Origin: an uncultured Mycoplasmatota bacterium
GTDB lineage: Bacteria; Bacillota_I; Bacilli_A; RF39; UBA660
Assembly: GCA_947646095.1 (NCBI GenBank)
Contig: CANSFI010000014.1
Location: forward strand, 1 to 48,008
Direction of reading: 5' to 3'
DNA length: 48,008 nucleotides
Part shown: positions 22,497 to 48,008 of the stretch, piece by piece
Numbering within the stretch: position 1 is the stretch's first letter
Layout of the letters: every line of letters begins with the position of its first letter
Notes under the pieces: generated by a model
The model's database searches: none
What the model was told of the DNA's origin: nothing
Seen by the model: only the letters and a program-made list of their open reading frames with translations
Translations under genes and position numbers: made by a program

Positions 22497-22527
22497 TTAT
22501 ATTCACCTCTTTCTTATGTTCTTAAAT

Positions 22528-22733: not shown

Positions 22734-22747
22734 AACTTTCACTTCCT

Positions 22748-23362: not shown

Positions 23363-23399
23363 AATTCCTCCTTCTTTTGATTAATCGCATACAAACTTA

Positions 23400-23495: not shown

Positions 23496-23564
23496 ATAAT
23501 CACTCTTCTATTTTTTACTAAATAAAACATTGCTAATTCATTTTTATTTTTAATAGTATATCTT

Positions 23565-23723
23565 CTAATTTCCATTTACTTTAAATATATATGGATTTTT
23601 TACTTTAGTCAAAAAATCTAATATTCTTTCGTTGCTAGGTTTTCTTCTATCTATTTTTATAGAAGTTATTTCGTCTACATCTTCTAATTTTTCTACTAAT
23701 TCTTCAATATCATATTTCTTCAT
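23565..23723 (-). pseudogene. DUF6870-like copy 2, internally deleted and truncated
   Basis: A 52-codon ORF starting MKKYDIEELVEKLEDVDEI. Compared with intact copies it lacks about 14 residues after the first helix (in frame) and stops at KVNGN, losing the C-terminal KLVRIKFSDTD...LYR part. The promoter and Shine-Dalgarno are kept. No cargo gene follows; 69 nt further is junction S2, so the cargo of this cassette has been deleted. Confidence 0.75.
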
Positions 23724-23742
23724 ATATTCACACTCCAACCTA

Positions 23743-23772
23743 ATTATATATTAAAAATGTAATTAATGTTAA
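23743..23772 (-). promoter_or_regulatory. Promoter of DUF6870 copy 2
   Basis: Minus-strand TTAACA (23767-23772), 18-bp spacer, TATAAT (23743-23748). It is homologous to the promoters at 21410 and 28077. Confidence 0.65.
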
Positions 23773-23782
23773 ATGTTTGAAT

Positions 23783-24652
23783 TTACTCATTAACTTTACT
23801 TTCTATTTTTTGTTGTTCTGGAGCATATCGGTAATTGAGTGCATTGTCTTTAGATATTGCAGATTTTTTTGTTTCCTTTTCATATAAATCTCTAGCACCT
23901 TTAGCAACTCCTCCACCTCTTTTGGCAACTCTCAAATTCTCTTTTAAACCTTGTGGATGTTCCTCTTTTGCGATATCTCGTGTTGCAATTTCTCCTATAT
24001 TTGTAAGTGCTACTTCTATATCAGTCATATTATCTCTTAAAGATTCTTTTCTAAGTCCTTTTAACTTTTTATATTCACTGGCTTTCATTCCAGACCAACC
24101 TTTATATATTTCATTCGTTAACATAGCATATTCATAATTTTCATTAATTCCATTTTCTTTCCAAGTATCTGTTAATTTTTTCCTATTTAAAATCCCATTT
24201 AATCTCTCTGAAATCCATTTATCACTGTATCCTCTTTTGCGATAATAATCTATTGCTCTATTAACTGCAATTTCAGGATCAAATACTTCATCTATTCTCT
24301 CACTTCCCAAATTTGCTAACCATAATTTGAAAGGCTCTGCTTTCGGGCTTGAAACAGATTCAATAAGTCTTAATATTCCTTTTGTATCCAAAGTATCTGT
24401 TATACGATTTTTACCATCTTGTGCTTTCATTTTCAACTGCACGATTTTTTCGTGCAGTTCACTTCCCTCATCAATTAATCTTCTTTTTAAATCGCTCCAA
24501 TAATTTCTTGGAATTTTTGCATCTGTTAATGTTGCAATAACATCTACGACACTAAAATAATATTCTTCGTTTTCACTATCCCATATACTTCTTATTTCCT
24601 TACCTTCAAATAAATTTGAAATTGTTTCTAATTTATTATTCAAATATAACAC
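23783..24652 (-). CDS. BRO-N domain (phage antirepressor-like) protein, cassette 3
   Basis: A 289-residue protein. The BRO-N domain covers about residues 10-125: FEGKEIRSIWDSENEEYYFSVVDVIATLTDA, then PRNYWSDLKRRLIDEGSEL, then LDTKGILRLIESVSSPKAEPFKLWLANLGSERIDEV. The C-terminal part is basic and helical. BRO-N proteins bind DNA and are typical of phages and mobile elements. It takes the place held by RhuM in cassettes 1, 4 and 6 and follows a type I leader. The ORF looks intact although its downstream partners are damaged. Confidence 0.85.
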   Translation of the reverse strand: MLYLNNKLETISNLFEGKEIRSIWDSENEEYYFSVVDVIATLTDAKIPRNYWSDLKRRLIDEGSELHEKIVQLKMKAQDGKNRITDTLDTKGILRLIESVSSPKAEPFKLWLANLGSERIDEVFDPEIAVNRAIDYYRKRGYSDKWISERLNGILNRKKLTDTWKENGINENYEYAMLTNEIYKGWSGMKASEYKKLKGLRKESLRDNMTDIEVALTNIGEIATRDIAKEEHPQGLKENLRVAKRGGGVAKGARDLYEKETKKSAISKDNALNYRYAPEQQKIESKVNE

Positions 24653-24688
24653 CTTCTTTCTTATCCTAATTATTAGAGGGGTTACAAC

Positions 24689-24898
24689 GTCGTAATCACC
24701 TTGCTAATTCCTATAACAAATATCATTAAAATCACGATATTTTTATCAATTTCAAATGATTTTAGCGCTTTTTTAATGAAAATATGCAAGATATAAATTT
24801 GAAATTTTCCTTTATTTATAAGGGTTTACGGGTGTTCTTAATTAAATCGTAATCAACCAGTTTATATTTGTCGAATTTTGTCGATTTTCATTTTTCAT
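24689..24898 (-). repeat. Cassette junction S3 with type I leader
   Basis: Same block order as S1: start codons, core AACTGG (24857-24862), TTGATTACGATT, CCCTTATAAATAAAGG, ATCTTGCATATTTTCATT, TTATAGGAATTAG and GGTGATTACGAC. The outer flank differs (ACGTTGTAACC instead of a TTAAGAACA block), as in S5. It joins cassettes 4 and 3. Confidence 0.85.
24842..24898 (-). pseudogene. Abandoned rbgA start S3 (18 codons)
   Basis: The ORF reads MKNENRQNSTNINWLITI and stop, 5 nt after the stop of the cargo gene at 24904. ENRQNSTNINW is identical to the start of the living RbgA. Confidence 0.8.
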
Positions 24899-24903
24899 TT
24901 GTT

Positions 24904-25599
24904 TCACATCCTTTTTTGACTATATAGTTCATACATTTCTAATGCATTATCAATATACATTTCATGTTCTGGTCTTTCTTCTTGAGCATTAATAAATATC
25001 TCTTTTATCGCATCATAACTTGGTACATTAATATTTTGCTCCTTGGCAATAATTCTAAGTTCCTCTTCCAAATTAGGATGCAAAAAAATCCAACGAGCAA
25101 TTTCTCTATCCGTATATTGCTTATGCAATTTTTCTATATAAATATTTCTAATTTTATCGATTAAATCACTATCATCATCTGGAACATAATCAGGTCTGTT
25201 AGGATAATAATATATATTAATCAGATTATCATCAACTAATTTATTTATAGCATCCATTAAACTTGTATATATTTCTTCTTTAATAACTGGCACTTCTGCT
25301 TCTGATACAACTTCGTTAAATCCAGTATTTATATTTTTAAATAATGTACTATCTAATGTATATAAGGAAAATTTATTCGAAAACATTTTTTCAAAAGCAT
25401 GAGGTAATCTTTCAACCAAATCAAGTTTACCATCTCCATTTGTTCCTAAACTATATGTTGCATCATCTCCACATCTTTTTGACATTATAATCGCTATTTC
25501 TTTGGATTTAGTGGCATATACATAAGTTCCGTGTGTTGACTTATGCGGTATTAACATTTTTAATCCTTGAGTTTTACTCCCATGATATACACATTCCAT
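24904..25599 (-). CDS. Unknown cassette 4 cargo with YHGS motif
   Basis: 231 residues from ATG 25599 (SD AGGTG; the in-frame GTG at 25608 is part of that SD). The N-terminus MECVYHGSKTQGLKMLIPHKSTHGTYVYATKSKEIAIIMS has the YHGS...L.P...YVYAT layout I associate with ADP-ribosyltransferase-like or RES-like folds, but this is a weak resemblance. The C-terminal half is acidic and helical. A toxin, defence or host-modifying role is possible but unproven. Its TGA stop lies 5 nt before abandoned start S3. Confidence 0.6.
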   Translation of the reverse strand: MECVYHGSKTQGLKMLIPHKSTHGTYVYATKSKEIAIIMSKRCGDDATYSLGTNGDGKLDLVERLPHAFEKMFSNKFSLYTLDSTLFKNINTGFNEVVSEAEVPVIKEEIYTSLMDAINKLVDDNLINIYYYPNRPDYVPDDDSDLIDKIRNIYIEKLHKQYTDREIARWIFLHPNLEEELRIIAKEQNINVPSYDAIKEIFINAQEERPEHEMYIDNALEMYELYSQKRM

Positions 25600-25612
25600 A
25601 TTTTTCACCTAC

Positions 25613-25889
25613 TTATCTATATAAATTCTTTAAAACATTCGTAAGACAATCATCCGCTGTTTTATCTGTATCAGAAAATCTAATTCTAACTAATTTCCCA
25701 TTTACTTTAAATATATAAGGATTCTTTACTTTTGTTAAAAAATCTAAATATTCTTTCTTCTCTACATTTCTTCCTACTTATTTTTATATCTTCTATATTA
25801 TCAACATCATCTGGATTAATATCTTCAATTGGAATATTCTTACATCTTTCTAATTTTTCTTTAATTTCTTCTAAATTGCACTTATTCAT
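25613..25889 (-). pseudogene. DUF6870-like copy 3, frameshifted
   Basis: Starts at ATG 25889 (MNKCNLEEIKEKLERCKN), overlapping the end of RhuM2. One extra T near 25748-25750 (ATATTTAGA where other copies have ATATTAGA) shifts the frame and stops translation at SLYI. Restoring the frame gives KVKNPYIFKVNGKLVRIRF and DTDKTADDCLTNVLKNLYR, the complete family ending. No separate promoter is seen here. Confidence 0.8.
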
Positions 25890-26904
25890 TATTATCATTC
25901 ATCTTACTTTCATTTAAATATTTATTATAAAACTCATCCATTGAAGAAATGTATTTCTGATCTTGAATTACTCTATATTTTTCATATTCACTTTCTGCCT
26001 TTTCTACCGCTTCATTATGAATTATATTTCCAGAATTTTTTAAAACACTTTTTCTTCTAAACTTTAATAAATCATCTGTTGCATCAATCCAATCTTGCAT
26101 TGTCTTAATGTGCCTTTCTTTTGCTTCTGCTTCTGCGAATACTAAAAACATGTTAGTTAAATCATTTTATTTATTTAATTCTTCTTCATTCAAATAATTT
26201 TTAGCAATAGATACATCATATTTATATATCAATCCATCAGGACTGTTCTTCCAATTTGTAAGTCCCATGTATTCATGCTCACTATTCGCTCTTTCATAAA
26301 TTAGTTCTGCTGCTGTGTGGCCAGAAATAGCATAATGAAGTTTATTTTGAACAATCTTGAAAAAAGTATAAGCACTCTCAGATTTAGGATTATAATCAGT
26401 TGCTGTTGCAATAAATAAATCAGTGATTTTTTGATATGACATTCTCTCACTTGCCCTGATAGTTTTAATTCTTTCAAGTAATTCATCAAAATATTTCATA
26501 TCGTATTTATTGCCTTTAATAAATCTTTCATCATTTAATGTAAATCCTTTTGTTATATATTCTTTTAAAATTTTTGTTGCCCATATTCTAAATTGGGTTG
26601 CTTTCTTCGAATTAACACGATAACCTACAGCAATAATCATATCTAAATTATATATTTTAGATTTTCTTCCTCCTGTACTTTCGTCGGAAATTCCGACAGA
26701 AGTTTCTTCCATGAGTTCTCCATCTTTTAAAATATTATTGATATGCTCTGTTATGGTACTTCTTCCTACTCCAAAGAGTTCAGCAATCAAATTTTGTGTT
26801 AACCAAATATCATTATTAATTAATAACACATTCACTTTGATATCGTTATTATCATCACGATATATTAAAAAATCATGAGTAGTTATTTGTAAATTATTTT
26901 TCAT
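25882..26904 (-). pseudogene. RhuM-family copy 2, nonsense-interrupted
   Basis: The first 200 or so residues closely match RhuM1 (IYRDDNNDIKVNVLLINNDIWLTQN and onward). The frame is broken by a single in-frame TAA at 26167-26169 after NEEELNK. Reading through gives NDLTNMFLVFAEAEAKERHIKTMQDW, the expected C-terminal part, so one TTA-to-TAA change would explain it. An N-terminal product of 245 residues might still be made. It belongs to cassette 4 after leader S4. Confidence 0.85.
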
Positions 26905-26935
26905 ATATATTCACCTCTTTCTTTTGTTCTTAAAA

Positions 26936-27138
26936 GTCATAATCACCTTTCTAATTCCTATTATAAATAACATCAAAATTACTATATTTTTTATAGTTTT
27001 TAATAAATTTAGGAAATTTTCAATGAAAATATGCAAGATCTAAATTAGCCAATTTCCTTTATTTATAAGGTTTAAGGGTGTTCTTAATTAAATCGTAATC
27101 AACCAGTTTATATTTGTCGAATTTTGTCGATTATCCAT
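26936..27138 (-). repeat. Cassette junction S4 with type I leader
   Basis: The block order of S1, with core AACTGG (27103-27108) and the paired TTAAGAACA / GATTACGA blocks near both ends (the outer copy reads GATTATGAC). It is very close to S1, matching the near identity of the RhuM genes that follow each. It joins cassettes 5 and 4. Confidence 0.85.
27088..27138 (-). pseudogene. Abandoned rbgA start S4 (16 codons)
   Basis: MDNRQNSTNINWLITI and stop, 5 nt after the TGA of the cargo gene at 27144. It is preceded by GAAAGTG. Confidence 0.8.
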
Positions 27139-27143
27139 ACTTT

Positions 27144-27767
27144 TCACTTTCTTTTAAATTCTTGTATTGGTATGTCATCAATCTTTGGAAAAGTTGTTTG
27201 AGATAAAAGCCAGTCACTATATTTTTTTAATTCCTCTTCATTTCTTTTATCGACAATAATACCCAATATCGTTTCAAAATCATTACTTAACAAATAATCA
27301 ATAATATCTTTCATATTACTATTAGAATTTTTTAAATTTCTAATTAATTCTATATATTTTTTATATTCTTCCCCCTCATTTTCTCTCGTATAAAAACTTC
27401 TTGGCTGATTCGTTATATTTACAATATACTCAGGCTCAAATTCTTCAATAGGAATAGCATACTCTGGAATAGGAAATTTTTCACCATTTAACTCATAAAA
27501 TCCAAATCCACTATATTTTTCTAGTATATCTTCTGGTATATTTGCCGTCATAAATAGAATATAATTGTCATTTGCTTTTTCATAACTACCATCTTTCCCT
27601 AAATTAAAATAATATGTAGCAAATTCATTATATCTAAAAAAATGAACATATTCCTTTTCTTCTTGATATTTATGGGTGTTTAATATAGAATTATCAAATT
27701 TTTCGTTTTTCTTATTTAAATATTTATTAATTACTTCTTGTAATTTAATACAACGATATACTCTCAT
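27144..27767 (-). CDS. Unknown cassette 5 cargo protein
   Basis: A 207-residue soluble protein. MRVYRCIKLQEVINKYL, then NTHKYQEEKEYVHFFRYNEFATYYF and EKANDNYILFMTANIPEDILEKYSGFGFY resemble hypothetical proteins of clostridial mobile regions. The YRC...YVHFF arrangement is vaguely ADP-ribosyltransferase-like, but I cannot name a family. A helical C-terminal half follows. It lies 14 nt after DUF6870 copy 4 and 5 nt before abandoned start S4. Confidence 0.6.
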   Translation of the reverse strand: MRVYRCIKLQEVINKYLNKKNEKFDNSILNTHKYQEEKEYVHFFRYNEFATYYFNLGKDGSYEKANDNYILFMTANIPEDILEKYSGFGFYELNGEKFPIPEYAIPIEEFEPEYIVNITNQPRSFYTRENEGEEYKKYIELIRNLKNSNSNMKDIIDYLLSNDFETILGIIVDKRNEEELKKYSDWLLSQTTFPKIDDIPIQEFKRK

Positions 27768-27781
27768 ATTTTTACCTCCAT

Positions 27782-28057
27782 TTATCTATATAAATTTTCT
27801 AAACCCCTGGTTAAACAATCTTCTGCAGTTTTATCAGTGTCAGAAAATCTCATTCTGACTAATTTACCATTAACCTTAAATATATAAGGATTCTTAACTT
27901 TCATTAAAAACTCTAATATTCTTTCATTACTAGGCTTTCTCTTATCTATCTTTATAGAACTTATTTCATCTACATCATCTAATGATACATCTTCCAGTTT
28001 CACGCTTTTGCGTCTTTTTAGTTTTTCTTCTAATTCTTTTAAATTATGTTTATTCAT
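27782..28057 (-). CDS. DUF6870-like small protein, copy 4 (intact)
   Basis: 91 residues from ATG 28057 (SD GGGGCGTG). It reads MNKHNLKELEEKLKRRKSVKLEDVSLDDVDEISSI in outline, then KNPYIFKVNGKLVRMRFSDTDKTAEDCLTRGLENLYR. It is full length compared with copy 1. It follows the broken DUF1016 gene with a conserved promoter between them, so it and the cargo can be expressed although the upstream gene is dead. Confidence 0.75.
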   Translation of the reverse strand: MNKHNLKELEEKLKRRKSVKLEDVSLDDVDEISSIKIDKRKPSNERILEFLMKVKNPYIFKVNGKLVRMRFSDTDKTAEDCLTRGLENLYR

Positions 28058-28076
28058 AAAATCACGCCCCAAACTA

Positions 28077-28105
28077 ATTATATATTTTAATATAATTAAT
28101 GTTAA
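28077..28105 (-). promoter_or_regulatory. Promoter of DUF6870 copy 4
   Basis: Minus-strand TTAACA (28100-28105), 17-bp spacer, TATAAT (28077-28082), with the same flanks (TTGCACATTTAACA...TATAATTAG) as copy 1. Confidence 0.75.
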
Positions 28106-28155
28106 ATGTGCAATTCTATATAAATTCTTTAAATATTGAAATCACTTCGGTATTG

Positions 28156-29231
28156 TTACTCATCATTTTTACCTTCATTTGCTAACTCATACAATTCTTT
28201 TTCATCTCTAATTATTTTGATTAATTCCTCTTTTGTTGGCAAATATGTTAAATATTTGGAGGCATAAACATTTTTAACATTATCACCTAAAGTCATTTCT
28301 ACCACTGCATCATCTTTATCTGCACATAATGATATTCCTATTGGTTCATTTTCCCCATCTATCATCTGTGTTTTCTTATAATAATTTACATACATCTGCA
28401 TTTGTCCAATATCTTGGTGAGTTAACTTGCCTATCTTTAAATCAATTATTACAAAACACTTTGCTAACCTATTATAGAATATCAAATCAGGATAATAATA
28501 TTCTGCTCCTATTTTAATTCTCTGCTGACTGGCAACATAAGAAAAACCTCGCCCAAGTTCAAGTAGAAATTCTGTTAAATGTGATAATAATGCATGCTCT
28601 AAATCTGTTTCTAGATAATTTTTATTTTCTTTTAATCCTGCAAATTCAAATATATAAGGAGATTTTAATAATTCCTCTGGGTCTTTCTCAATTAACTGAT
28701 TTTTAGAGTTTTCAATAATTTTATTTTTATCTGGAGATATTAAATATCTGTCATATAGCTTTGTATTTATTTGTCTACGCAACTCTCTACATCCCCAATT
28801 AGACTTAATTGATTCATTCTCATAAAAATCTCTTTCTTCTTTTCTGTCAATTTTAATCAGTTCTTGGAAATGAGCCCAAGACAATTCGGTCGACACTGTC
28901 GACCATATTGGATACATTTCATAAAATCTTCGCATTCTTCTAATACTAACAGCTGAAAAACCACTTCCAAATTCATTAGTTAACTTAGAAGATAAAACAT
29001 CAATTACTTTTTTCCATAACTTGCTTTTGTACTATTTTCAGATAACTCATAAGTTATTTTTCCTACATACCAATAAACTTCTGTCATTGTAGTATCAATA
29101 TGTTTGAACATTTTTTCCTTAGCAACTATTATCTTATTTCGTATATTTTGATAAATATCTTCAACATCTATTAATTCATTTTCGTTATTTACTATCATTT
29201 CATTTTTCTTTTTCAATATTATCACCTTCAT
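28156..29231 (-). pseudogene. DUF1016 (YhcG-type PDDEXK nuclease) gene, frameshifted
   Basis: The N-terminal DUF1016_N part (29004-29231: KMFKHIDTTMTEVYWYVGKITYELSEN) and the C-terminal nuclease part (28156-28935: YPDLIFYNRLAKCFVIIDLKIG, a PD-(D/E)xK core) lie in different frames. At about 29004-29010 the run reads GG plus six A. Seven A would join the frames as SYGKKVIDVLSSKLTNEFG, the expected family sequence. YhcG proteins are mobile-element-associated nucleases. It occupies the RhuM position in cassette 5. A homopolymer sequencing error or phase variation cannot be excluded. Confidence 0.82.
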
Positions 29232-29260
29232 TTCATAATTTATTAGATAGGAGTTGCAAC

Positions 29261-29479
29261 GTCGTAATCACCTTACTAATTCCTATAACAAATATTATTA
29301 AAATCACTATATTTTTATCATTTTCAAGTGATTTTAGCACTTTCTTTATTAAAATATGCAAGATCTAAAATCGTTCAATTCCTTTATTTATAAGGGTTTG
29401 TTTGAGGGTCGCAATAAATCGTAATCAGCCAGTTGATTACACTTTTATTAAGAACATTTTCTTTGTCAGAATTATTCAT
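29261..29479 (-). repeat. Cassette junction S5 with type I leader and divergent start
   Basis: Leader blocks as in S3 (TCGTAATCACC outer repeat with a GTTGCAACG flank, ATCTTGCATATTTT, CCCTTATAAATAAAGG). The core is CAACTGG (29429-29434). The inner repeat here carries GGTCGCAAT before AAATCGTAATCA, echoing the GTTGCAACG before the outer repeat, so the two repeats of one leader covary. The start-codon side is unlike the others. Confidence 0.82.
29384..29479 (-). pseudogene. Abandoned rbgA start S5 (31 codons), different N-terminal extension
   Basis: SD AAGGAAGTG, then MNNSDKENVLNKSVINW followed by LITIYCDPQTNPYK and stop. INW and LITI are as at the other junctions, but the preceding residues differ. 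This shows that only the INW core is fixed and the N-terminal extension is element-specific. It lies 15 nt after the GNAT stop. Confidence 0.75.
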
Positions 29480-29494
29480 TAAAATCACTTCCTT

Positions 29495-30019
29495 TTATTT
29501 TGTTTTACTATAATATTCAACTCCAGAATATGTTCCATCTTTATTTAATCTTCTATTTGCAATATAACCATCCTTATTGAACCCTGCTTTCTCCATTACT
29601 TTAGATGATTGTTTATTTAATTCATTACAAGAACATTCTACCAAATAATAACCACTATCAAGTAAATAATCAGATACCGCTTTTAATGCTTCGCTAGCAT
29701 ATCCATTGCCCCAATAATCATATCTAACAACATATCCAACATTACAATAATTATGTTTTTTATTTACTGTATTTACTGAAATATTCCCAATTGTTATATT
29801 ATTCTCTTTTAAAACAATTGACCATCTTTCATATTTAGATTCTTCTACTTCAGTCATACAATTTTTAATATATTCATTTTCTTCATCTTTTGTTAAATTA
29901 GGAAATGGGATATATGTATGCAATCTATCATCATGTAATATTTCATAAAAAGCATCAATATCACTTTCGTTATATCTTCTTAGAATTAACCTCTCTGTCT
30001 CTATTTTAGGACTTAACAT
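29495..30019 (-). CDS. GNAT acetyltransferase (RimJ/RimL type), cassette 6 cargo
   Basis: About 174 residues from ATG 30019 (an in-frame GTG at 30028 is the alternative). PKIETERLILRRYNESDIDAFYEIL at the start, GNISVNTVNKKHNYCNVGYVVRYDYWGNGYASEALKAVSDYLL with the acetyl-CoA loop, and VECSCNELNKQSSKVMEKAGFNKDG are characteristic of the RimJ/RimL-like GNAT branch. Substrates in this branch include ribosomal proteins, spermidine and antibiotics, and none can be assigned. It is cassette cargo preceding junction S5. Confidence 0.88.
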   Translation of the reverse strand: MLSPKIETERLILRRYNESDIDAFYEILHDDRLHTYIPFPNLTKDEENEYIKNCMTEVEESKYERWSIVLKENNITIGNISVNTVNKKHNYCNVGYVVRYDYWGNGYASEALKAVSDYLLDSGYYLVECSCNELNKQSSKVMEKAGFNKDGYIANRRLNKDGTYSGVEYYSKTK

Positions 30020-30038
30020 ATTTCCCACTACTACTTTT

Positions 30039-30147
30039 TTATCTATATAAATTTTTCAATACATTTGTAAGACAATCTTCGGCTGTATTATCTGTATCAG
30101 AAAAAGTCATTCTCACTAGCTTTCATTTACTTTAAATACATATTAAT
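30039..30147 (-). pseudogene. DUF6870-like copy 5, C-terminal fragment
   Basis: Minus strand codes for a VFKVN start, then after a 1-nt loss (AATGAAAGC for AATGGAAAGC) LVRMTFSDTDNTAEDCLTNVLKNLYR and stop. The first two thirds of the gene are missing. It lies 20 nt before the GNAT ATG, the same place DUF6870 genes hold before the other cargoes. Confidence 0.75.
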
Positions 30148-30173
30148 GTATGATCTTTTCTTTATGATTTAAG

Positions 30174-30491
30174 CTATAACATATTCTCTTCAATAATTTC
30201 TAAATAATATTTTTCATATTCTTCGCTTAATTTTACATTTATGTTTTTTAAATAATTTAGTAATTTATAATATGTTTCTTTTATCTCTAATCCATACCAA
30301 TAAGTTAAATCTATAAGATTATCTAAAACTTTTTCTATTTCTATTTCATTTTTTATTTTATTATCTATTATATACTCAATATTTTCTTTTTCTAATGCCA
30401 GTTTTTGTTTTTGAAGTTGTCCAAGTTCTTTCATTGGCACTTTTAAACTAGAAACTAACTCATCTATTATCTTTTGTTCATCATTATTCAT
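30174..30491 (-). CDS. Small helical protein coupled to RhuM3
   Basis: About 105 residues from ATG 30491 (GGTG six nt upstream; ATG 30503 is possible). It is all-helical and charged (DEQKIIDELVSSLKVPMKELGQLQKQKLALEKENIEYI), with a Trp/Tyr patch LIDLTYWYGLEIKETYYKLL. It overlaps the end of RhuM3 by 8 nt, so it is translationally coupled and may be a RhuM partner. No comparable gene follows RhuM1 or RhuM2. Unrecognised. Confidence 0.6.
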   Translation of the reverse strand: MNNDEQKIIDELVSSLKVPMKELGQLQKQKLALEKENIEYIIDNKIKNEIEIEKVLDNLIDLTYWYGLEIKETYYKLLNYLKNINVKLSEEYEKYYLEIIEENML

Positions 30492-31485
30492 AATCAACAC
30501 CATTATTATTAGGTAGTGACTCCATCATTAAATCAAAATCACTTTGTAATTCCTTCATTTCTCTTTCACGATAAATTTCAAATTCTTTTTCTGCTTTTTC
30601 TATTGACTCTTCATGAGATATTTTTCCATTTCCTTCAAGTAATTTTCTTCTATTAAGCAATATTTGATTGTCCAATTCCTCTACCCAATCTGCCATTTTC
30701 ATGATTCTTTGTTCTAATGCTTGCAATTCAGCATAATCTAAAAATTGAGATACTAATAAATTAAGTCTTTGTAGTTCAATTTCTGATAAATAATTTTTAG
30801 CAATTTTTACATCATCTATTGTAACATAATCACCTTTAAAGTTAGTCATACCAACATAAGGTTTCTCATTATCTACCCTTTCATATATAAGTTCTGCTGC
30901 AGTGTGTTCATGAACTGCAAAATGTAACTTGTTTTGAACGGTTGCAAAAAATTTTTTTGTTATATCACTTCTAGGATTATAATCAATACTGGTTGCATAA
31001 ATATCAGTAACCTGCTGATAGAAATTTCTTTCGCTTGAGCGAATATCTCTGATTCTCTGTAAAAGTTCTCTAAAGTATCTATTTCCACCTTGTTTTAACC
31101 TTTCATCATCCATAGCAAATCCTTTTTGAATATATTCGTGAAGTCTTTGAGTGGCCCATATTCTAAATCGAACTGCTACTTCTGATTGAACTCGATATCC
31201 TAAAGCAATTATCATATCAAGATTATAATGATCAATATTTCTTTTTACTTTTCGATTACCTTCTTTTTGAACTAACAAGAAATTCTTGTGAGTTGAAACA
31301 TCTTGTAATTCTCCATCTTCATAAATCTTTTTAATGTGTAAACTGATATTTTGTTGTGTTGTTTTATAAATACTTGCTATATGATTTTGAGTTAACCAAA
31401 TGTCTTCATCAATAAATTTTACACTCACTTTTGTAGTTCCATCTTTATCTTCGTATATCATTACATCGTTATCTTTTTTATTCAT
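30484..31485 (-). CDS. RhuM-family protein, cassette 6 (intact, divergent)
   Basis: A 333-residue RhuM-like protein: VSVKFIDEDIWLTQNHIASIYKTTQQNISLHIKKIYEDGEL at the N-terminus, then NLDMIIALGYRVQSEVAVRFRIWATQRLHEYIQKGF, RDIRSSERNFYQQVTDIYA, LHFAVHEHTAAELIYERVDNEKPYVGMTNF and LLVSQFLDYAELQALEQ. It shares the whole architecture with RhuM1 but is clearly more distant than RhuM1 is from RhuM2. It follows a type II leader with SD GGAGG. The ORF is intact. Confidence 0.88.
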   Translation of the reverse strand: MNKKDNDVMIYEDKDGTTKVSVKFIDEDIWLTQNHIASIYKTTQQNISLHIKKIYEDGELQDVSTHKNFLLVQKEGNRKVKRNIDHYNLDMIIALGYRVQSEVAVRFRIWATQRLHEYIQKGFAMDDERLKQGGNRYFRELLQRIRDIRSSERNFYQQVTDIYATSIDYNPRSDITKKFFATVQNKLHFAVHEHTAAELIYERVDNEKPYVGMTNFKGDYVTIDDVKIAKNYLSEIELQRLNLLVSQFLDYAELQALEQRIMKMADWVEELDNQILLNRRKLLEGNGKISHEESIEKAEKEFEIYREREMKELQSDFDLMMESLPNNNGVDYE

Positions 31486-39867: not shown

Positions 39868-39901
39868 ATTAAAAAATTTCTAGATTTTACTCTAGAAATT
39901 T
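39868..39901 (-). terminator. Terminator of the TasA/SipW operon
   Basis: On the minus strand AAATTTCTAGA and TCTAGAAATTT pair around a 6-nt loop, and a T-rich tract follows. It lies directly at the end of the last gene of the surface operon. Confidence 0.85.
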
Positions 39902-41484
39902 TATTTATTTACTGTATATTCTACAATATATTCATTATCTTTATCAGATTTAATATTACTTGAACCTATTGTTGTATTTGTTTTAAAGTATTTATCTAAG
40001 TTTGTAATAGTTTGATTAACACTTGTTTTATTAGTACCTTTAATATTGATAGTTAATGTACTATTATTAGTATTACTAAATGTAATTGTTATATCATTAT
40101 TTGGAATAGTAACTGGTGTAATAGTAAATAAATTAATTTCACCATCTGATTTTATATTAATTATTAAATATCTGTTTCCATCTTTTTGAACAAAGTAATC
40201 ATTAAATGCTCCTACTTTTGTTGCACCTTTTCTATTTTTTGTAATAGAAGCTTGAATATCTTCTCTATTATAAATTTGACCTCTAATATCTTTTGATATT
40301 TCATTGCCATAGAACTTAGTTAATCCTTGTCCAAAGCTATACATCATATTATCAAATGTATCAAATGCAACATAAGGTTTATTATTAGCTTCTGACATAG
40401 CAGCACTAAGTATTTCTGATTTAATTAATGTAATTCCACTATTACCACTTGTAGCATCATAAGATAGTCTAACAAAACCTGTTGTCAATTTATTATTGAA
40501 AATCAAATCATAAAGTTTGTTATTATTATAAGCATATTTATAAATAACATCAGCTGTATCTTTCTTATTTGGATATATATATTCATTTAAATAAATTTGG
40601 AATGCTTGATATAATCCTCCTTTAGTTTTAGTAGAAAAATATAGATTAATACTATCAGGAGAACCATATATTTTATATTGATGATATGTTTTAGAGTAAC
40701 CAATAAAGTTTTCTAATATTTTGAATGTATATTCACCTGTATAATTATCATATTCGACACTAAGACCTGGTAGAGCATTAAATTTATTTGGATCTTTTAA
40801 TTCAGTTTCACCATAATAAATCTTTCTAACATATTCTTCGGCTTCTTTTTCGCTTCCTGTTATATATTTACCATATTCCCTTATCCATGTTATAAATTCG
40901 TTATCAAAATTTTTGGAAGTTTCAGAAATTACTATAAAATCATTAACTTTTGCATATACATGTTTAAGATAATCATCATATGTTTCTTTGTAAGTATATT
41001 TTGTATATAAAAATGGACTTTGATCATCGATAGTTGCTGATACATTAGTTTTATAGTTTAATTCTTTATTAGGTGTCACAGCACATTTAATGTGAATATT
41101 AACAACTGTATTTCTATTTGTACCATTATTGTATGAAACAGTATAAGAATGTAATGATTTATCTATATAGGCATTTTCTTTTACTTTTTCAAATGTACAA
41201 GTATTTGGTATATCTATTTTATAAGAATCTTTTTTACTATTTTTTCCTACTTCACTAGGTTTAAAAGAAAATCTAAGATAAATATAATCCATAGTTGCTC
41301 TTTCTAAAATAATATTATGTTCACTATATAAATTATAAAGCTTAGTTTTATATACTAGTGCAGAAGATTCATCATGTTGAAAGGATGAATAAGTTTGTGG
41401 CAAATTGATTAAACCAATTGAACCTATTATTAGTAAAGAGAAAACTACTATCTTAAATATGTTTTTATGATTTCTATTTTTCAT
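39901..41484 (-). CDS. Large secreted protein of the TasA-like operon, unknown function
   Basis: A 527-residue protein with an N-terminal signal or anchor (KIVVFSLLIIGSIGLINLPQTYSSF). The hydrophobic segment ending TYSSF resembles the start of SipW-processed TasA-like proteins (TYAKY, TYSKY). The rest is beta-rich, with a pair of Cys in the first third (NTCTFEKV, IHIKCAVT), long Tyr-rich regions, and a C-terminal Thr/Asn-rich segment. No known domain is recognised. Last gene of the operon, 15 nt after the TasA-like gene. Confidence 0.65.
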   Translation of the reverse strand: MKNRNHKNIFKIVVFSLLIIGSIGLINLPQTYSSFQHDESSALVYKTKLYNLYSEHNIILERATMDYIYLRFSFKPSEVGKNSKKDSYKIDIPNTCTFEKVKENAYIDKSLHSYTVSYNNGTNRNTVVNIHIKCAVTPNKELNYKTNVSATIDDQSPFLYTKYTYKETYDDYLKHVYAKVNDFIVISETSKNFDNEFITWIREYGKYITGSEKEAEEYVRKIYYGETELKDPNKFNALPGLSVEYDNYTGEYTFKILENFIGYSKTYHQYKIYGSPDSINLYFSTKTKGGLYQAFQIYLNEYIYPNKKDTADVIYKYAYNNNKLYDLIFNNKLTTGFVRLSYDATSGNSGITLIKSEILSAAMSEANNKPYVAFDTFDNMMYSFGQGLTKFYGNEISKDIRGQIYNREDIQASITKNRKGATKVGAFNDYFVQKDGNRYLIINIKSDGEINLFTITPVTIPNNDITITFSNTNNSTLTINIKGTNKTSVNQTITNLDKYFKTNTTIGSSNIKSDKDNEYIVEYTVNK

Positions 41485-41499
41485 TTTACCTCACCCCTT

Positions 41500-42156
41500 C
41501 TATCTTGTTTGAGTTGCTGAATATCCAACTGTTAATATATCGTAAATTTTATTGTTTTCATCCATAAAAATATATTTAGGAAGACCTGTTTCCTTATCTA
41601 TTTCCACTCCTCTTATAACTTCACAACCATTACCAGATTCTTTACAGTTATATTTATTATAATCTACAACTTTTTCATCATATACTACAGTAACCTTATA
41701 TATCATTTTTTCTTTATTTCCAGCAATTGCATGATCTGCTATACTTTCAGTTTTTTCGTTATCACTTTTACTAACAATATTAACTTTTGAGTTATCTGTT
41801 TCTACTTTTTCTATTTCTTTTATTTTAAAATGAGTATCAACATTAATTGTTAAAATTAAGTCAGCACTTACTTCTAAATTACTAGTATTTACAGCGAAGT
41901 AATAAACCATTTCAGATGTTGGATTTTGCCTGAAAACTTCATTACCTTTAATACCTTCATTACATGTAGCATCACTACAATATTCAAGAGCGATATTAAA
42001 TTTTGAAACTCTTGCACTGTCGCTTCCATCTAACATGTTTGAAATATATTTTGAATATGTTATTACAGTAGTAAAGAGTCCCATACACATTACATACATG
42101 AATAACCATTTTTTTAAATTTTTCTTAAATATTTTACTCTGTAATAAGCCTTTCAT
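41500..42156 (-). CDS. Minor TasA/CalY-like subunit
   Basis: A 218-residue protein with a signal anchor (LKKWLFMYVMCMGLFTTVITYSKYIS) followed by SDSARVSKFNIALEY. The TYSKYIS...ARVSKFNI layout mirrors TYAKYVS...ARVAKWEI of the two TasA copies, and both families end near a QTR motif. It therefore looks like a diverged fibre subunit or anchor comparable to TapA. Two Cys pairs (CSDATC; CKESGNGC) could form disulfides. It follows SipW2 by 10 nt. Confidence 0.7.
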   Translation of the reverse strand: MKGLLQSKIFKKNLKKWLFMYVMCMGLFTTVITYSKYISNMLDGSDSARVSKFNIALEYCSDATCNEGIKGNEVFRQNPTSEMVYYFAVNTSNLEVSADLILTINVDTHFKIKEIEKVETDNSKVNIVSKSDNEKTESIADHAIAGNKEKMIYKVTVVYDEKVVDYNKYNCKESGNGCEVIRGVEIDKETGLPKYIFMDENNKIYDILTVGYSATQTR

Positions 42157-42166
42157 AATATTTCAC

Positions 42167-42736
42167 CTACCATTTTTTATTCTCTTTTTTACTTAAATAT
42201 TCTTTAAATTCTTCATATTCTTTTTCTTCTTCATCTAATATTAAATTACCTTTATTATCAATACTTAAAAATATACAAAGTAATACTCCATTACCTAATA
42301 TTAAAGTAGCGATAATTGGATTTTTTAACATTGATAAAATCTTTTGACCTTTATTTATTTTAAATACATATTTTCCTACTATTTTACTAGTAGAGGTTGC
42401 TTCATCATTGGTATTGTTATTATCACCTTTGGTTATCATTTCTGTTTCATTAATTGAAACTATCCTATGAGTAACAAATGATCCTTCAGAATCATAAAAA
42501 GTTATTATGTCACCCTTATGATATTCTTTGACTTTTGTATCAATAACAATCATATCACCTTTATAAATAGTTGGTTCCATAGAACCAGATACAACTTCTA
42601 AAACAGTATACCCATTTATAGTAGTTATATCCTTTTTTAAAATTTTAGTAGAAACAACTCTATATACATTATAAGCTACTAACAATACTAAAATTATTGA
42701 AATAATTACAAAGAATATTTTTCTTGCTATTTTCAT
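42167..42736 (-). CDS. SipW-type (ER/archaeal-like) signal peptidase I, copy 2
   Basis: A 189-residue S26B peptidase with an N-terminal membrane segment (about 5-25) and a second C-terminal one (about 140-160). Nucleophile Ser is in VVSGSMEPTI, the catalytic His in SFVTHRIVSI (His replaces the Lys of LepB), and TKGDNNNTNDE carries the Asp. SipW enzymes in Bacillus process TasA and TapA. Placed just before the minor subunit gene, suggesting a dedicated partner. Confidence 0.92.
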   Translation of the reverse strand: MKIARKIFFVIISIILVLLVAYNVYRVVSTKILKKDITTINGYTVLEVVSGSMEPTIYKGDMIVIDTKVKEYHKGDIITFYDSEGSFVTHRIVSINETEMITKGDNNNTNDEATSTSKIVGKYVFKINKGQKILSMLKNPIIATLILGNGVLLCIFLSIDNKGNLILDEEEKEYEEFKEYLSKKENKKW

Positions 42737-42751
42737 GATTACACCATAATT

Positions 42752-44788
42752 TTAGTTTGTTGGACAAGACTCATTTTTTACTTCAAAATTAATACCTATA
42801 GATAAACCATATGTATCATTTATGCTTTCATCTTCAAGCTTTTTAGCAACATAATTTCCTATTAGAGTATCTAATTTATCATTATCTACCCATTTCCAAA
42901 AGATTACAATTTGCATTTCATCTTCTGGTTCTAGTTCTATTTTATTAAGTGGTAATTGTGCTTTAAAACTATTATCTGCTATTTTTATAGTTCCTGGGTT
43001 TGTATTTAAAATCCAATATTCTTCTGCATTTTCACCAGAACCCATTTTACCATAACATGCTTCCCACTCTGATTCAGGAGTTGAATATTTAATCATATAA
43101 CCCATATTCAAACATCCTTCTTTTACACAAACAGTATCTTCTTTTAAAGTTATACTATCCATAATAATTTTACTAGAACTTTCATTTGTTAAATTCATTG
43201 TATACATTCCAGATACTCCTGGATAAATTACTTTATCTTCTTTATATTTTTGATAATATTCTTCATTATGAAATAGTGGAATATCTTTAACCCATAAAGT
43301 TTTAGTTAATTTTAATTCTGAAATTGGATTTGCTTTAGTATCATAGATTGCATACAAATTCAAATTATTTTCTAATTCACTAATTATTTCGTCACCATTA
43401 TATTCAACTTTTCCATTAAGAGTGGTACTATAACCCATAAATTTATAATATACACAATCCTTTTCACTAATTTTATAAGGTTTATCATATTCAGATAAAT
43501 CTAACTTATCGTCATTTGATAATTCAAATTCATAAAGTTTTGTAAATTCATTAAACATTCCATCAACTGCATCAATTGTAACAATATATTTTTCTCCTAC
43601 TTTAATTTCAATATTGAAATCTGCTACATTTTTGCCAAGAGCTTGAGCAGAAACATGTATAGTAGATGTTCCAATTGAATTAGCAATTATTTTAAATGGA
43701 AGAGATGATGGTTCATTAAATTCGCCTGTATATTCTATTTCTATATTACCTCCATCGTTGTTACCATCAACAGCAAGAGTTAGACAGAATTTTTTATCTG
43801 TTGAACAGATAACTAAGTTCTTTTTACCATTTGTTGTTATTTCAACTTTTTGATTATCGAATAAATTAGTGTTTAATATAATACTTCTTTCACCATGACC
43901 ATCTACAAAACTCATACTATATTTTTTTTGTTGAGATGTAACTTGATATTTTTTTTCTTCAGGATTATTTCCTGTATTGTTACCACCACTATTTCCACCA
44001 TTATTATTTGGTTTATTAGGATTATTGGTAGTATTATCTTCGTTTTTATTAATAACACTTAAATTATATGTAGCCCTATATTCTTTACCATTATAAGTAA
44101 CAGAAAGTGTTATAGTAGCATTGCCTGGCTTTAATCCAGTTATATAAAGTTTCCCATCACGAGCTGTTGCTGTTGCTACACTGTTATCGCTTGATGTTAC
44201 TTTAACTTCGCCACTAAGACCTATTAAACTATAATTAACTACAACTTGATTTCCATATTTTAAATTTATTGTTCCTCCATTACTAGATAAAGCAATAGAT
44301 TTTTTAGAATCAGTGATAGTAACTGTTGTTGTAGCTTCATATATTTTTCCATTTGCAGTTGTTTGCAATGTAACTTTTACTTTCCCAACTGCTTTAGGAT
44401 TTATAACAACATATCCATCTTTAACATAACAAGTAGCAATGCTTGCATCACTAGTTGAACAAGTAAATTTGCTAGGTCTTATTTTGCTATAAGAATAACT
44501 AATCTTTCCATCTACATCACTTAAAGACATTTCGAAATTACTAACATCAAATTTCAATTCCTTATTTGAAATAACTTCCATATCATTAGTATCATCATCA
44601 ATAGGATAATCATCTTCGTTTTTAAAAATATTATTAATACTATCTGATAAAGAGGATCCAATTTGTCCTAGTAATTTAGATGTACAACTACAACTAGTAA
44701 TTAATAAAAGAAGTACACTAATTATTATAATCAAAATAACAATTTTTTCACTTTGATTTTTTTCTTCTTTATTTGAATAATTTTCCAC
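42752..44788 (-). CDS. Surface (lipo)protein with Ig-like and InlB-type repeats
   Basis: 678 residues from a GTG start (SD AAAGGG). A membrane segment (about 19-33) ends LLLITSCSC, which could be a lipobox. Two BIG2-like beta domains (about 75-160 and 165-245: SDASIATCYVKDGYVVINPKAVGKVKVTLQT and SDNSVATATARDGKLYITGLKPGNATITLSVTY), a Asn/Gly/Pro linker (about 250-275), a third region, an InlB B-repeat-like segment (YYKFMGYSTTLNGKVEYNGDE), and a TasA-like C-terminal domain (PGVSGMYTMNLTNESSSKIIMD) follow. Probably an extracellular anchor or adhesin for the fibres. It lies after paired hairpins that separate it from tasA. Confidence 0.78.
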   Translation of the reverse strand: MENYSNKEEKNQSEKIVILIIIISVLLLLITSCSCTSKLLGQIGSSLSDSINNIFKNEDDYPIDDDTNDMEVISNKELKFDVSNFEMSLSDVDGKISYSYSKIRPSKFTCSTSDASIATCYVKDGYVVINPKAVGKVKVTLQTTANGKIYEATTTVTITDSKKSIALSSNGGTINLKYGNQVVVNYSLIGLSGEVKVTSSDNSVATATARDGKLYITGLKPGNATITLSVTYNGKEYRATYNLSVINKNEDNTTNNPNKPNNNGGNSGGNNTGNNPEEKKYQVTSQQKKYSMSFVDGHGERSIILNTNLFDNQKVEITTNGKKNLVICSTDKKFCLTLAVDGNNDGGNIEIEYTGEFNEPSSLPFKIIANSIGTSTIHVSAQALGKNVADFNIEIKVGEKYIVTIDAVDGMFNEFTKLYEFELSNDDKLDLSEYDKPYKISEKDCVYYKFMGYSTTLNGKVEYNGDEIISELENNLNLYAIYDTKANPISELKLTKTLWVKDIPLFHNEEYYQKYKEDKVIYPGVSGMYTMNLTNESSSKIIMDSITLKEDTVCVKEGCLNMGYMIKYSTPESEWEACYGKMGSGENAEEYWILNTNPGTIKIADNSFKAQLPLNKIELEPEDEMQIVIFWKWVDNDKLDTLIGNYVAKKLEDESINDTYGLSIGINFEVKNESCPTN

Positions 44789-44821
44789 ACCCTTTACCCC
44801 TTTCTTAATTCACTATTTAAT

Positions 44822-44876
44822 TTCCTAATAAACCTACGAAATTCATAGGCTTATTAGGAAGTTAAATAACTTCCTT
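44822..44876 (-). promoter_or_regulatory. Two overlapping intercistronic hairpins after tasA
   Basis: In minus-strand RNA a stem of about 18 bp pairs 44822-44839 with 44843-44860. Two of its pairs are G-U in this RNA but would be A-C mismatches in the plus strand, pointing to selection on the minus-strand transcript. A second stem, AGGAAGTTA/TAACTTCCT (44856-44864 with 44867-44875), shares about five bases with it, so only one can form. No T run follows. It probably stabilises tasA mRNA or tunes downstream expression. Confidence 0.65.
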
Positions 44877-45679
44877 TTATTAAGCTATTAATTATGCTCC
44901 TGTTGTAGTAGTTGCAGCATCTCTAGTTTGTTCAGCTCTGATTGTAATTTTTAAGTTAATTAAATGATCTTCAGCACTTTTTCCAAGTTCTGTATCTTGT
45001 GTATCATTTCCATTGAAGTCCCATTTCCAATAAATTGTATATGATGGTACATTTACTTTTCCTGGTGCATATACTGTATCACTTTCTCCTGAATATAAGT
45101 CTGCTAATGCTTCTTTTAATTCAGTGAATGTTAATAAATTTTCATTTGCGATTGTATCAATATCTTCGCTATCATTTGTTGATAAATAGAATCTCATTGG
45201 ATCGTATGTTTCTGTTTTTGTTACTCCATCTTCTACAAATGAATATTCTGTTGTTACATTATTATCTCCACTTACTATTAAGTTAATTCTATAGTTTGTT
45301 TCAATTTCTCCTGTTAAGGCAAATGTATATTGTCCTTTTGTTCCTGGTGCTACTACTCTTTTTCCATTTAATGATTTTACTACTTCTTTATTTGTTTGAT
45401 CATTCATTACATAATCGTATGATTCTTGGAATAAATTGAATGTTTTTTCTGTATCTTCTGTTAATCCAATTTCCCATTTTGCTACTCTTGCTTCATCTGC
45501 AAGATCAATTTCTGATACATATTTTGCATATGTTCCACTTACTGAATAGCTAGTAACTACTACTGCCATTGCTAATACTCCTAAAAATGTCATTCCTTTT
45601 TTCATAATTTTTCCTCCCACATTTTATTTTATTTTTTTTATTCTTTCTATGTAAATCTCTTTCGAGTATTTACCACATT
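44875..45679 (-). repeat. Tandem duplication unit, downstream copy
   Basis: Contains tasA copy 2, its leader and the last about ten bases of the SipW1 gene (AATGTGGTAA), which here is a non-coding stump. By eye it is identical to the unit at 45683-46490 except for a small difference at the 3' end of the gene, a 3-nt indel plus a few changes in the Thr codons. Confidence 0.9.
44892..45605 (-). CDS. TasA/CalY-like fibre protein, copy 2
   Basis: 237 residues from ATG 45605; the in-frame GTG at 45620 belongs to the Shine-Dalgarno (GGGAGGA). Signal peptide MKKGMTFLGVLAMAVVVTSYSVSGTYA precedes KYVSEIDLADEARVAKWEIGL, the TasA-type mature start, followed by a beta-rich domain (GTKGQYTFALTGEIETNYRINLIVSGDNN; YTIYWKWDFNGNDTQDTELGK) ending ITIRAEQTRDAATTTTGA. 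Bacillus TasA forms biofilm fibres after SipW processing. The neighbouring SipW genes support the same here. Confidence 0.88.
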   Translation of the reverse strand: MKKGMTFLGVLAMAVVVTSYSVSGTYAKYVSEIDLADEARVAKWEIGLTEDTEKTFNLFQESYDYVMNDQTNKEVVKSLNGKRVVAPGTKGQYTFALTGEIETNYRINLIVSGDNNVTTEYSFVEDGVTKTETYDPMRFYLSTNDSEDIDTIANENLLTFTELKEALADLYSGESDTVYAPGKVNVPSYTIYWKWDFNGNDTQDTELGKSAEDHLINLKITIRAEQTRDAATTTTGA

Positions 45680-45682
45680 TAT

Positions 45683-46490
45683 TTTTATTAAGCTATTAAT
45701 TATGCTCCTAGAGTTGTTGTAGTTGCAGCATCTCTAGTTTGTTCAGCTCTGATTGTAATTTTTAAGTTAATTAAATGATCTTCAGCACTTTTTCCAAGTT
45801 CTGTATCTTGTGTATCATTTCCATTGAAGTCCCATTTCCAATAAATTGTATATGATGGTACATTTACTTTTCCTGGTGCATATACTGTATCACTTTCTCC
45901 TGAATATAAGTCTGCTAATGCTTCTTTTAATTCAGTGAATGTTAATAAATTTTCATTTGCGATTGTATCAATATCTTCGCTATCATTTGTTGATAAATAG
46001 AATCTCATTGGATCGTATGTTTCTGTTTTTGTTACTCCATCTTCTACAAATGAATATTCTGTTGTTACATTATTATCTCCACTTACTATTAAGTTAATTC
46101 TATAGTTTGTTTCAATTTCTCCTGTTAAGGCAAATGTATATTGTCCTTTTGTTCCTGGTGCTACTACTCTTTTTCCATTTAATGATTTTACTACTTCTTT
46201 ATTTGTTTGATCATTCATTACATAATCGTATGATTCTTGGAATAAATTGAATGTTTTTTCTGTATCTTCTGTTAATCCAATTTCCCATTTTGCTACTCTT
46301 GCTTCATCTGCAAGATCAATTTCTGATACATATTTTGCATATGTTCCACTTACTGAATAGCTAGTAACTACTACTGCCATTGCTAATACTCCTAAAAATG
46401 TCATTCCTTTTTTCATAATTTTTCCTCCCACATTTTATTTTATTTTTTTTATTCTTTCTATGTAAATCTCTTTCGAGTATTTACCACATT
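45683..46490 (-). repeat. Tandem duplication unit, upstream copy
   Basis: The first unit in transcription order. It starts in the last codons of SipW1 (LMW-stop), so the breakpoint lies inside that gene's end. The two units are about 811 bp long and abut directly. Confidence 0.9.
45700..46416 (-). CDS. TasA/CalY-like fibre protein, copy 1
   Basis: 238 residues from ATG 46416. Same sequence as copy 2 except for one extra residue at the very end (TTTTLGA instead of TTTTGA). The strong AGGAGG-like Shine-Dalgarno and the duplicated dose fit an abundant structural subunit. It lies 64 nt after SipW1. The two genes have no terminator between them and are probably one transcript. Confidence 0.88.
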   Translation of the reverse strand: MKKGMTFLGVLAMAVVVTSYSVSGTYAKYVSEIDLADEARVAKWEIGLTEDTEKTFNLFQESYDYVMNDQTNKEVVKSLNGKRVVAPGTKGQYTFALTGEIETNYRINLIVSGDNNVTTEYSFVEDGVTKTETYDPMRFYLSTNDSEDIDTIANENLLTFTELKEALADLYSGESDTVYAPGKVNVPSYTIYWKWDFNGNDTQDTELGKSAEDHLINLKITIRAEQTRDAATTTTLGA

Positions 46491-47344
46491 AATTCATCAT
46501 CAGAATCATTATTTTTTTCTTCTTCTCTAGAGAGTAATAATTCTAATATTTCTTCTTTTGTAAAGCCTCTATCTTGTAGTGCTTTAACTACTCTGATATC
46601 TATATTTGGTCTAGGTTTTGGTCTTGGTTGTTCTTCTTGATATCTAATTTCTTCTCTATTTTGTATTTCGTGTTGTCTTTGAATTTCTTGCTGTCTTTGT
46701 AATTCATTTTGTTTTTCTAGTTCATGTTCCTTTAACATTTGTTCTTTTTGTTGTGTTTCTTGTTCTTTTAACATTTTGTATTTTAAGAATTCTTCTCTTT
46801 CAAGATCTTTATCTTTTTTCATTGAAATCATAAATCCTATAACAAATAGAACAGTTATTATGAGTGCTAACGCGAGTATAGTAGTTGGTTCTGATAAACT
46901 TTTCATTATTGAACCAAATCCAGAAATACGTCCAACGTATATTCCCTCAACATCTTCAAGACTAACTAAATTGTGATCTTGTGTGCTGTTATTGTCACCT
47001 TTTGTAATAAATTGTGTATGTCCATTATTTTCAACTATATCAATAATTCTATGTGTTGTAACAGTATTTTCAGCATCTCTAAAGGCTATTATATCTTTTA
47101 CTTTCAAAGTTGTTGGATCAACTTTTTTTGTTATAATTAAATCTCCTTTATGAATTTTACCTTCCATTGATCCTGAAAGAACAATGAATGGTTTATATCC
47201 AAAAACACTTGGTACTTTATCTTTATTTGTTTTTGATTGAAATATAATGTATATGTTAGCAATCAATATAGGAACTAATATGATACTTGCTATTATAACT
47301 AGCCAACTACTAAATGATTTATACCATTTTTTACCCTTTTTCAT
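46481..47344 (-). CDS. sipW: SipW-type signal peptidase with Gln/Glu-rich tail, copy 1
   Basis: 287 residues from ATG 47344; in-frame upstream GTG codons lie in the Shine-Dalgarno region. N-terminal membrane helix (about 12-33), SGSMEGKIHKGD with the catalytic Ser, VTTHRIIDI with the catalytic His, TKGDNNSTQDHN, and a second membrane helix (about 155-175). Unusually a cytoplasmic tail of about 110 residues follows: a Gln/Glu coiled coil (QQKEQMLKEHELEKQNELQ), a PRPKPRP linker, and a short helical hairpin IRVVKALQDRGFTKEEILELLL, resembling the SHOCT-like terminal helices. It is upstream of and presumably processes TasA. Confidence 0.88.
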   Translation of the reverse strand: MKKGKKWYKSFSSWLVIIASIILVPILIANIYIIFQSKTNKDKVPSVFGYKPFIVLSGSMEGKIHKGDLIITKKVDPTTLKVKDIIAFRDAENTVTTHRIIDIVENNGHTQFITKGDNNSTQDHNLVSLEDVEGIYVGRISGFGSIMKSLSEPTTILALALIITVLFVIGFMISMKKDKDLEREEFLKYKMLKEQETQQKEQMLKEHELEKQNELQRQQEIQRQHEIQNREEIRYQEEQPRPKPRPNIDIRVVKALQDRGFTKEEILELLLSREEEKNNDSDDELMW

Positions 47345-47368
47345 TCTTATCACTCTCACTTGTTTATT

Positions 47369-48008
47369 TTAACAATTTCCGTTATTACTAACATTACGTA
47401 TTTTTACTAATTTTTTTGGTTTTTCATTGAAGGATACTGTAATATTATCAATATCACTAAAATCCATTTGCATTGAATTTTCACTAGTTTCATTAATAAA
47501 TGTTACTTGTGGCCCCCACTTAGTTGATCCACATGCTGGACATACATATTGTTCTGCTTTGTCTGGTGAGGCATATTCATTAATTTTTCCAGTTGGTCTC
47601 CAATTATGTTCTACATTATAACTATAACTATAACCACATGAACATGTTACTGTAAATTTATGACAATATACATCCCCTTCTATTTTTGATATGGATTCAG
47701 TTAAATTGTGTGTATGAACCACCTTGTTGTGAAGACACCCTGGACATTGTGCATAAACTGTTACTCCATCATTTGCTGTTGTTGTTGGTCCACTGTAATC
47801 ACAGTTCCCTGGAACTGATGGTGCTGCTGTAGTATAACCACATCCATTAGTACATGATTGTTCTCTAGCGAAAGAGTGTTGATCATTTCCTATATATTGT
47901 GGTATTCCTACATTATATGGAGTACCAAGATTGTGTCCTCTTGTATCAGTATGTCCACAAGTGTTACAATTTCTTCCTTCACCAGCATCACCAAGTGATA
48001 CCCAATTA
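47369..48008 (-). CDS. Partial Cys-rich (zinc-ribbon-like) protein upstream of sipW
   Basis: The frame is open from the right window edge (first full codon at 48007) to the stop at 47369, about 212 residues of the C-terminal part, so an apparent GTG start at 47722 is internal. It contains repeated Cys pairs: CNTCGHTDTRGHNLG, CTNGCGY, CPGCLHNK, CSCGYSYSYN and CPACGSTKWGP. Such CxxC pairs with nearby His suggest several small zinc ribbons or disulfide loops. The N-terminus, and hence any signal peptide, is outside the window. It precedes sipW by 24 nt in the same operon. Confidence 0.7.
   Translation of the reverse strand, partial: NWVSLGDAGEGRNCNTCGHTDTRGHNLGTPYNVGIPQYIGNDQHSFAREQSCTNGCGYTTAAPSVPGNCDYSGPTTTANDGVTVYAQCPGCLHNKVVHTHNLTESISKIEGDVYCHKFTVTCSCGYSYSYNVEHNWRPTGKINEYASPDKAEQYVCPACGSTKWGPQVTFINETSENSMQMDFSDIDNITVSFNEKPKKLVKIRNVSNNGNC

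Follow-up and report, generated by a model that had tools for sequence, protein, structure and literature searches.

A tandem pair of TasA-like fibre-subunit genes bracketed by conserved RNA elements in an uncultured RF39-type bacterium

The DNA analysed here (the window) is a complete contig of 48,008 nucleotides (C14) from the 1.38-Mb genome, in 46 contigs, of a gut-type bacterium. Its minus strand carries, in this order, a CxxC-rich repetitive gene cut by the contig end, a sipW gene, two copies of a secreted subunit gene and the gene of a 678-aa protein, followed downstream by a second sipW and two more secreted proteins. The first peptidase gene (46481–47359, minus strand) matches the SipW/archaeal-type signal peptidase I family TIGR02228 at 94.1 bits, over the cut-off of 51.85, and scores 107.5 bits against NF046067, under the cut-off of 190. 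The second (42167–42736, minus strand), whose product is 41% identical to the first, also exceeds the TIGR02228 cut-off (96.8 bits). The 678-aa partner (42752–44788, minus strand) shows an N-terminal membrane helix, a weak Big_2 match and, at residues 509–650, a C-terminal domain recognized by profile A3 (E 5e-5) and lacking the N-terminal part of the subunit. The partner in the related locus L015 has a subunit-related C-terminal domain as well (E 8.5e-7), and so do those of other genera. This subunit-like domain would suit a candidate fibre base or anchor.

Positions 39901–42736 hold the second SipW-type peptidase and two secreted proteins with a similar leader motif, both candidates for minor subunits of that fibre. 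One candidate (41500–42156, minus strand) shares the signal motif TYSKYISNMLDGSDSARVSKFNI with the subunit and matches A3 weakly. The gene upstream of sipW (47369–48008 in the window, 1–380 in L015 and 3142–3585 in L004) is repetitive, with CxxC-rich or ESQTEE repeats, looks unrelated between relatives and tends to lie where contigs end. Elsewhere in the window, what looks like a small accessory island spans 21471–31485: a cluster of similar genes (21471, 26167 and 30484) that has direct repeats of 41–57 bp at 22661, 24830 and 27069.

Subunit copy 1, proximal to sipW (45700–46431, minus strand), is an open reading frame of 243 aa with a SipW-type signal peptide (...SVSGTYAKYVSE) and the C-terminus AATTTTLGA; it is supported by its profile A3 relatives and by hhalign to same-class PF12389 relatives. 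Copy 2 (44892–45620, minus strand) is an open reading frame of 242 aa, lies in the exact repeat described below and ends in AATTTTGA. The two proteins are identical except for their ends, DAATTTTLGA in copy 1 and DAATTTTGA in copy 2. An inverted repeat, CTAGAG/CTCTAG, is formed by the altered tail of copy 1 and nearby sequence (45708–45713 and 45732–45737). One templated (quasi-palindrome) mutation is suggested as the maker of the sole difference between the copies.

At the nucleotide level the duplication consists of two exact blocks. Positions 45719–46490 (unit 1, minus strand), comprising the last 10 bp of sipW, the leader hairpin and most of the gene, are repeated without any change at 44908–45679 (unit 2, minus strand), which gives 772 bp at an offset of 811. 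The 27-bp block of unit 1 at 45683–45709 (minus strand), containing the 3' end of the gene and 17 bp downstream, has its counterpart at 44875–44901 at an offset of 808. Two substitutions and a 3-bp indel, all within about 10 bp, separate the 772-bp and 27-bp blocks, and a 3-nt filler (45680–45682, minus strand) forms the junction between the units. Each unit begins with the 10 bp that close sipW (46481–46490) and extends 17 bp beyond the subunit stop codon; its end coincides with the foot (first base) of the next stem-loop, at 44874. One cassette is thereby repeated, in which the SipW-linked TasA-like gene is preceded by the conserved leader hairpin and a ribosome site. The copies stand head-to-tail with a single novel junction, as in a tandem duplication, and the remainder of the 48-kb window has no exact repeat longer than 57 bp. 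The tandem duplication of the subunit gene is genuine in the sequence. An initial annotation had described a near-perfect duplication at 44875–46490, and the repeat coordinates reproduce both limits exactly; the exact blocks also agree with its units, including the leader and the last sipW bases, and with its small change near the 3' end. The "TTTT-rich" C-terminal tail in that description is right when read as amino acids (Thr). The breakpoint, which had been said to show how the duplication arose, tells what was joined, but neither the mechanism nor the date.

The same description had called the gene tasA-like, a name that holds as distant profile-profile homology and operon context but not as a match to the TasA/camelysin Pfam model. 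The subunit gene adjoins a SipW-type signal peptidase and carries a SipW-type leader, whose TYA.Y is invariant in 18 relatives of the subunit. In these 18 relatives the Pfam model PF12389 (Peptidase_M73) gave no match over the cut-off, and scans with Pfam and NCBIfam returned chance-level matches only. A PF12389 family scan of genome G000 found none, and the same scan does detect B. subtilis. When A3 was compared by hhalign with PF12389-type proteins of the same class, the targets being class relatives picked by PF12389, the probability was 95.8 (P 7.5e-9) over 123 columns including the signal region. With the jelly-roll fold and donor-strand polymerisation of the TasA/camelysin family as the reference, AlphaFold2 was run on three sequences, and the subunit model is mostly beta but of low confidence (pLDDT 58.7); Foldseek of this model against the PDB gave no match with E<=0.001, and a sequence search of solved structures found nothing for the subunit. 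Because a Pfam match is missing yet the profile-profile probability reaches 95.8, the subunit is named TasA-like and not TasA, its apparent membership being one of distant homology and operon context. By analogy, the product is the probable main surface-fibre protein. Within the literature library searched, nothing was found on TasA or SipW in RF39-type Tenericutes and nothing on tandem identical tasA genes.

The subunit genes are flanked by two conserved RNA elements. The leader hairpin of copy 1 (46462–46484, minus strand), GTAAAT-A-CTC GAAA GAG-ATTTAC, overlaps the sipW stop codon, and an identical hairpin precedes copy 2 inside the 772-bp repeat (45651–45673, minus strand). A leader of this kind, with the pattern GTAAAY-bulge-stem-loop-stem-RTTTAC and placed over or after the sipW stop, is present in nearly all sipW-linked relatives. 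Among the 26 loci that have the anchor motif in its plain form, the three inner pairs of the hairpin are complementary to their own partner in 21, compared with a mean of 6.8 after shuffling. The second element (44816–44874, minus strand; z about -7) follows the last copy, is not duplicated and lies between the subunit and anchor genes. It is composed of a short stem, GGAAGTT/AACTTCC, and a long helix, TTTAACTTCC...GGAAATTAAA, both of which compete for AACTTCC: this segment is the 5' arm of the long helix, and GGAAGTT lies upstream of it. The 3' element was found in 32 of the 33 loci listed. Of the 23 pairs in the long helix, 9 have changed on both sides, a value not attained in any of 500 shuffles, and 97% of cells are paired; the short stem also covaries, as GAAAG/CTTTC in five loci. 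No U-tract is present, and the element is therefore not a standard terminator. With Rfam 15, six sources gave no hit for the leader or the 3' element at the gathering threshold (tRNAs only), and six further loci gave none for either at E<=1. These elements may be the more novel part of the locus, and both RNA structures plausibly stabilize the fibre mRNA, by analogy with known messages. An extra leader element, AGGAATAGCATAAATTCCTATGCATAAAAATTTATGC, was observed in L031, L036, L039, L067, L070, L071 and L072 and is absent in the window and in L015; its loop GCATAA is able to pair with a downstream TTATGC in a pseudoknot-like manner, and it had no Rfam match in the loci tested.

An orthologous tandem pair is found in L015 (CANOTJ010000003.1, genome G165), where 768 bp are identical between sipW and the same partner gene; its 112-kb contig holds no other exact repeat of more than 60 bp. 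The two subunit proteins of L015 are identical to each other, and those of the window and L015 are about 59–61% identical; both genomes come as fragmented assemblies of the MAG type, whose copy numbers are not reliable. In a tree of SipW, subunit and partner, the window joins L015 and L016 joins L004, each with support 100/99. These next closest relatives, L016/G054 and L004/G011, have a single subunit copy in their assemblies. No other identical pair was seen in several hundred genomes of the family searched, and a further 384 genomes yielded no fifth member of the close clade. Identical pairs occur in only two of about 33 sipW-linked loci, a lower bound since a draft assembly may have collapsed a pair into a single copy, and on this distribution a doubled dose is not generally needed. 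Three adjacent but divergent subunit paralogs were observed in L045 (G402:C103), which is an older tandem array whose copies were not kept identical. Stand-alone relatives of the subunit without sipW occur in L024 (G122), L033 (G279), L062 (G513) and L068 (G431); in these loci a different signal peptidase follows and both hairpin elements are absent.

Codon adaptation to tuf, fusA, rpsG and rpsL is 0.806 and 0.803 for the two copies, which rank 1 and 2 of 50 ORFs, compared with 0.78–0.81 for the reference genes themselves and a window median of 0.66. Having the most ribosomal-protein-like codons of the 50 window ORFs, both copies are probably highly expressed; their codon usage indicates selection for high expression, to which amino-acid composition may contribute. 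The annotated proposal that the duplication alters the dose of the main fibre subunit fits this codon usage and the operon, and is plausible.

The pair could have been created by the assembler, either by looping through a single-copy gene or by merging strain variants that differ at the C-terminal tail. The fragmentation into 46 contigs, the location of both pairs 1–2 kb from a contig end and the chance that a coverage-guided loop mis-set the copy number would all fit such an origin. The junction, with its filler and sipW-end relic, is however unique sequence that must have had read support, and the usual failure of short-read assemblers is to collapse identical repeats rather than to invent them. 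Moreover, both genomes carry a doubling of this gene, and neither contig has any other exact repeat exceeding 60 bp, which argues against a random artefact. An assembly origin is accordingly considered improbable, and the locus may truly hold two copies or more.

The initial annotation had also called the duplication recent, which perfect identity does not prove, given that the sister genome G165 has its own identical pair with proteins about 59–61% identical between the genomes. Full identity (100%) within the genome against this divergence between genomes is the pattern of concerted evolution, and the pair in G165 makes either concerted evolution or repeated duplication worth considering. 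The repeat of the window takes in 10 bp of sipW at one breakpoint and 17 bp beyond the stop codon at the other, with the 3-nt filler; in L015 the repeat takes in 2 bp of sipW and breaks off at the stop codon, and the filler measures 24 nt. No homology was detectable between the spacers of the window and L015 (best of 12 comparisons, p 0.02 uncorrected), and shared spacer ancestry, or relics of an older sipW end, was rejected as evidence on that basis. The differing breakpoints and the spacers without detectable homology do not favour one shared duplication. An ancestral duplication with homogenization takes one gain and independent origins take two. One old duplication kept identical by recombination and two separate duplications are held to be about equally probable. 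A neutral tandem duplication, recent, confined to this lineage, unrelated to that of G165, unselected and likely to be lost again, would account for a junction that simply joins the gene plus 17 bp to its own last 10 bp of sipW through a 3-nt filler, for copy differences that amount to one clustered event and for breakpoints and spacers unlike those of L015. Against it, the same gene is doubled at the same place in a sister genus, as the sole such repeat in either contig, and a neutral direct repeat of 770 bp is expected to vanish quickly through recombination; we regard it as unlikely, if less so than an artefact. Since the sister genus has its own identical pair, the doubling is suggested to serve a higher output of fibre protein and not to be a one-off accident.

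The favoured overall explanation, held with some confidence, is that duplication of an expression cassette between the SipW-type peptidase and the anchored partner genes works as a dosage device. The major subunit would be present twice on a single operon transcript, a separate leader hairpin preceding each copy, and the 3' stem-loop after the last copy would shield the subunit part of the message against decay; fibre subunit would then be produced in large excess over peptidase and anchor. On the simplest reading, we infer that more fibre subunit is obtained through the hairpins as well as through the gene doubling. The 770-bp repeats would let homologous recombination homogenize the copies, by gene conversion or unequal crossing-over, and recombination between them would also raise or lower the copy number. 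More tentatively, two undescribed RNAs might bracket the main fibre gene family-wide, with a two-state switch in the 3' element and the recombination-homogenized duplication together setting the subunit:anchor ratio, an extension which we find possible but doubtful. Very unlikely is a functional difference between the copies, the tails TTTTLGA and TTTTGA marking subunit variants or a recombination reservoir: the tail is the sole site at which the copies differ, C-terminal residues form an inter-subunit contact in B. subtilis TasA fibres (PMC9674648) and the B. cereus paralogs TasA and CalY have separate roles (PMC13082335), but the change is one residue in a tail freely variable among relatives, and the two L015 proteins are identical.

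If the dosage reading is confirmed, an uncultured lineage with small genomes would have two genera in which a TasA-like fibre gene is kept as two identical tandem copies, and a fibre of another kind would join the flagellin-type cases of concerted evolution. The conserved hairpins offer a concrete, testable handle on how one operon yields a structural subunit in large excess.

As in B. subtilis tapA-sipW-tasA and B. cereus sipW-tasA/calY, a SipW-type peptidase adjoins a secreted subunit whose leader is similar; an accessory protein is likewise present, and paralogous subunits are known in B. cereus (PMC13082335). In B. cereus, TasA and CalY share 61% identity, are encoded in separate operons and differ in role, whereas the window copies are identical and adjacent. 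Unlike the Bacillus tasA loci, the window has no TapA and no PF12389 match, and its partner is a large membrane-anchored Big_2-like protein. The 3' element resembles the stable intercistronic hairpins without U-tract that stand beside a gene needed in excess in the papBA pilin and malEFG mRNAs; such hairpins protect the message of the abundant subunit in malE and others, and the PapA pilin message is stabilized by processing (PMC5927463). It differs from them in having two competing stems conserved across many genera. In the tandem flagellin fla genes of Alteromonadales, adjacent copies of the main subunit are near-identical within a genome and divergent between species, and Wang and Chen stated for them the same ambiguity between gene conversion and independent tandem duplication (PMC6053082). 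The protein family and the organelle are other than those of the window, where the comparison covers two genomes only. A locus in which the main subunit of a polymer is encoded by tandem copies that stay identical is of a kind already known.
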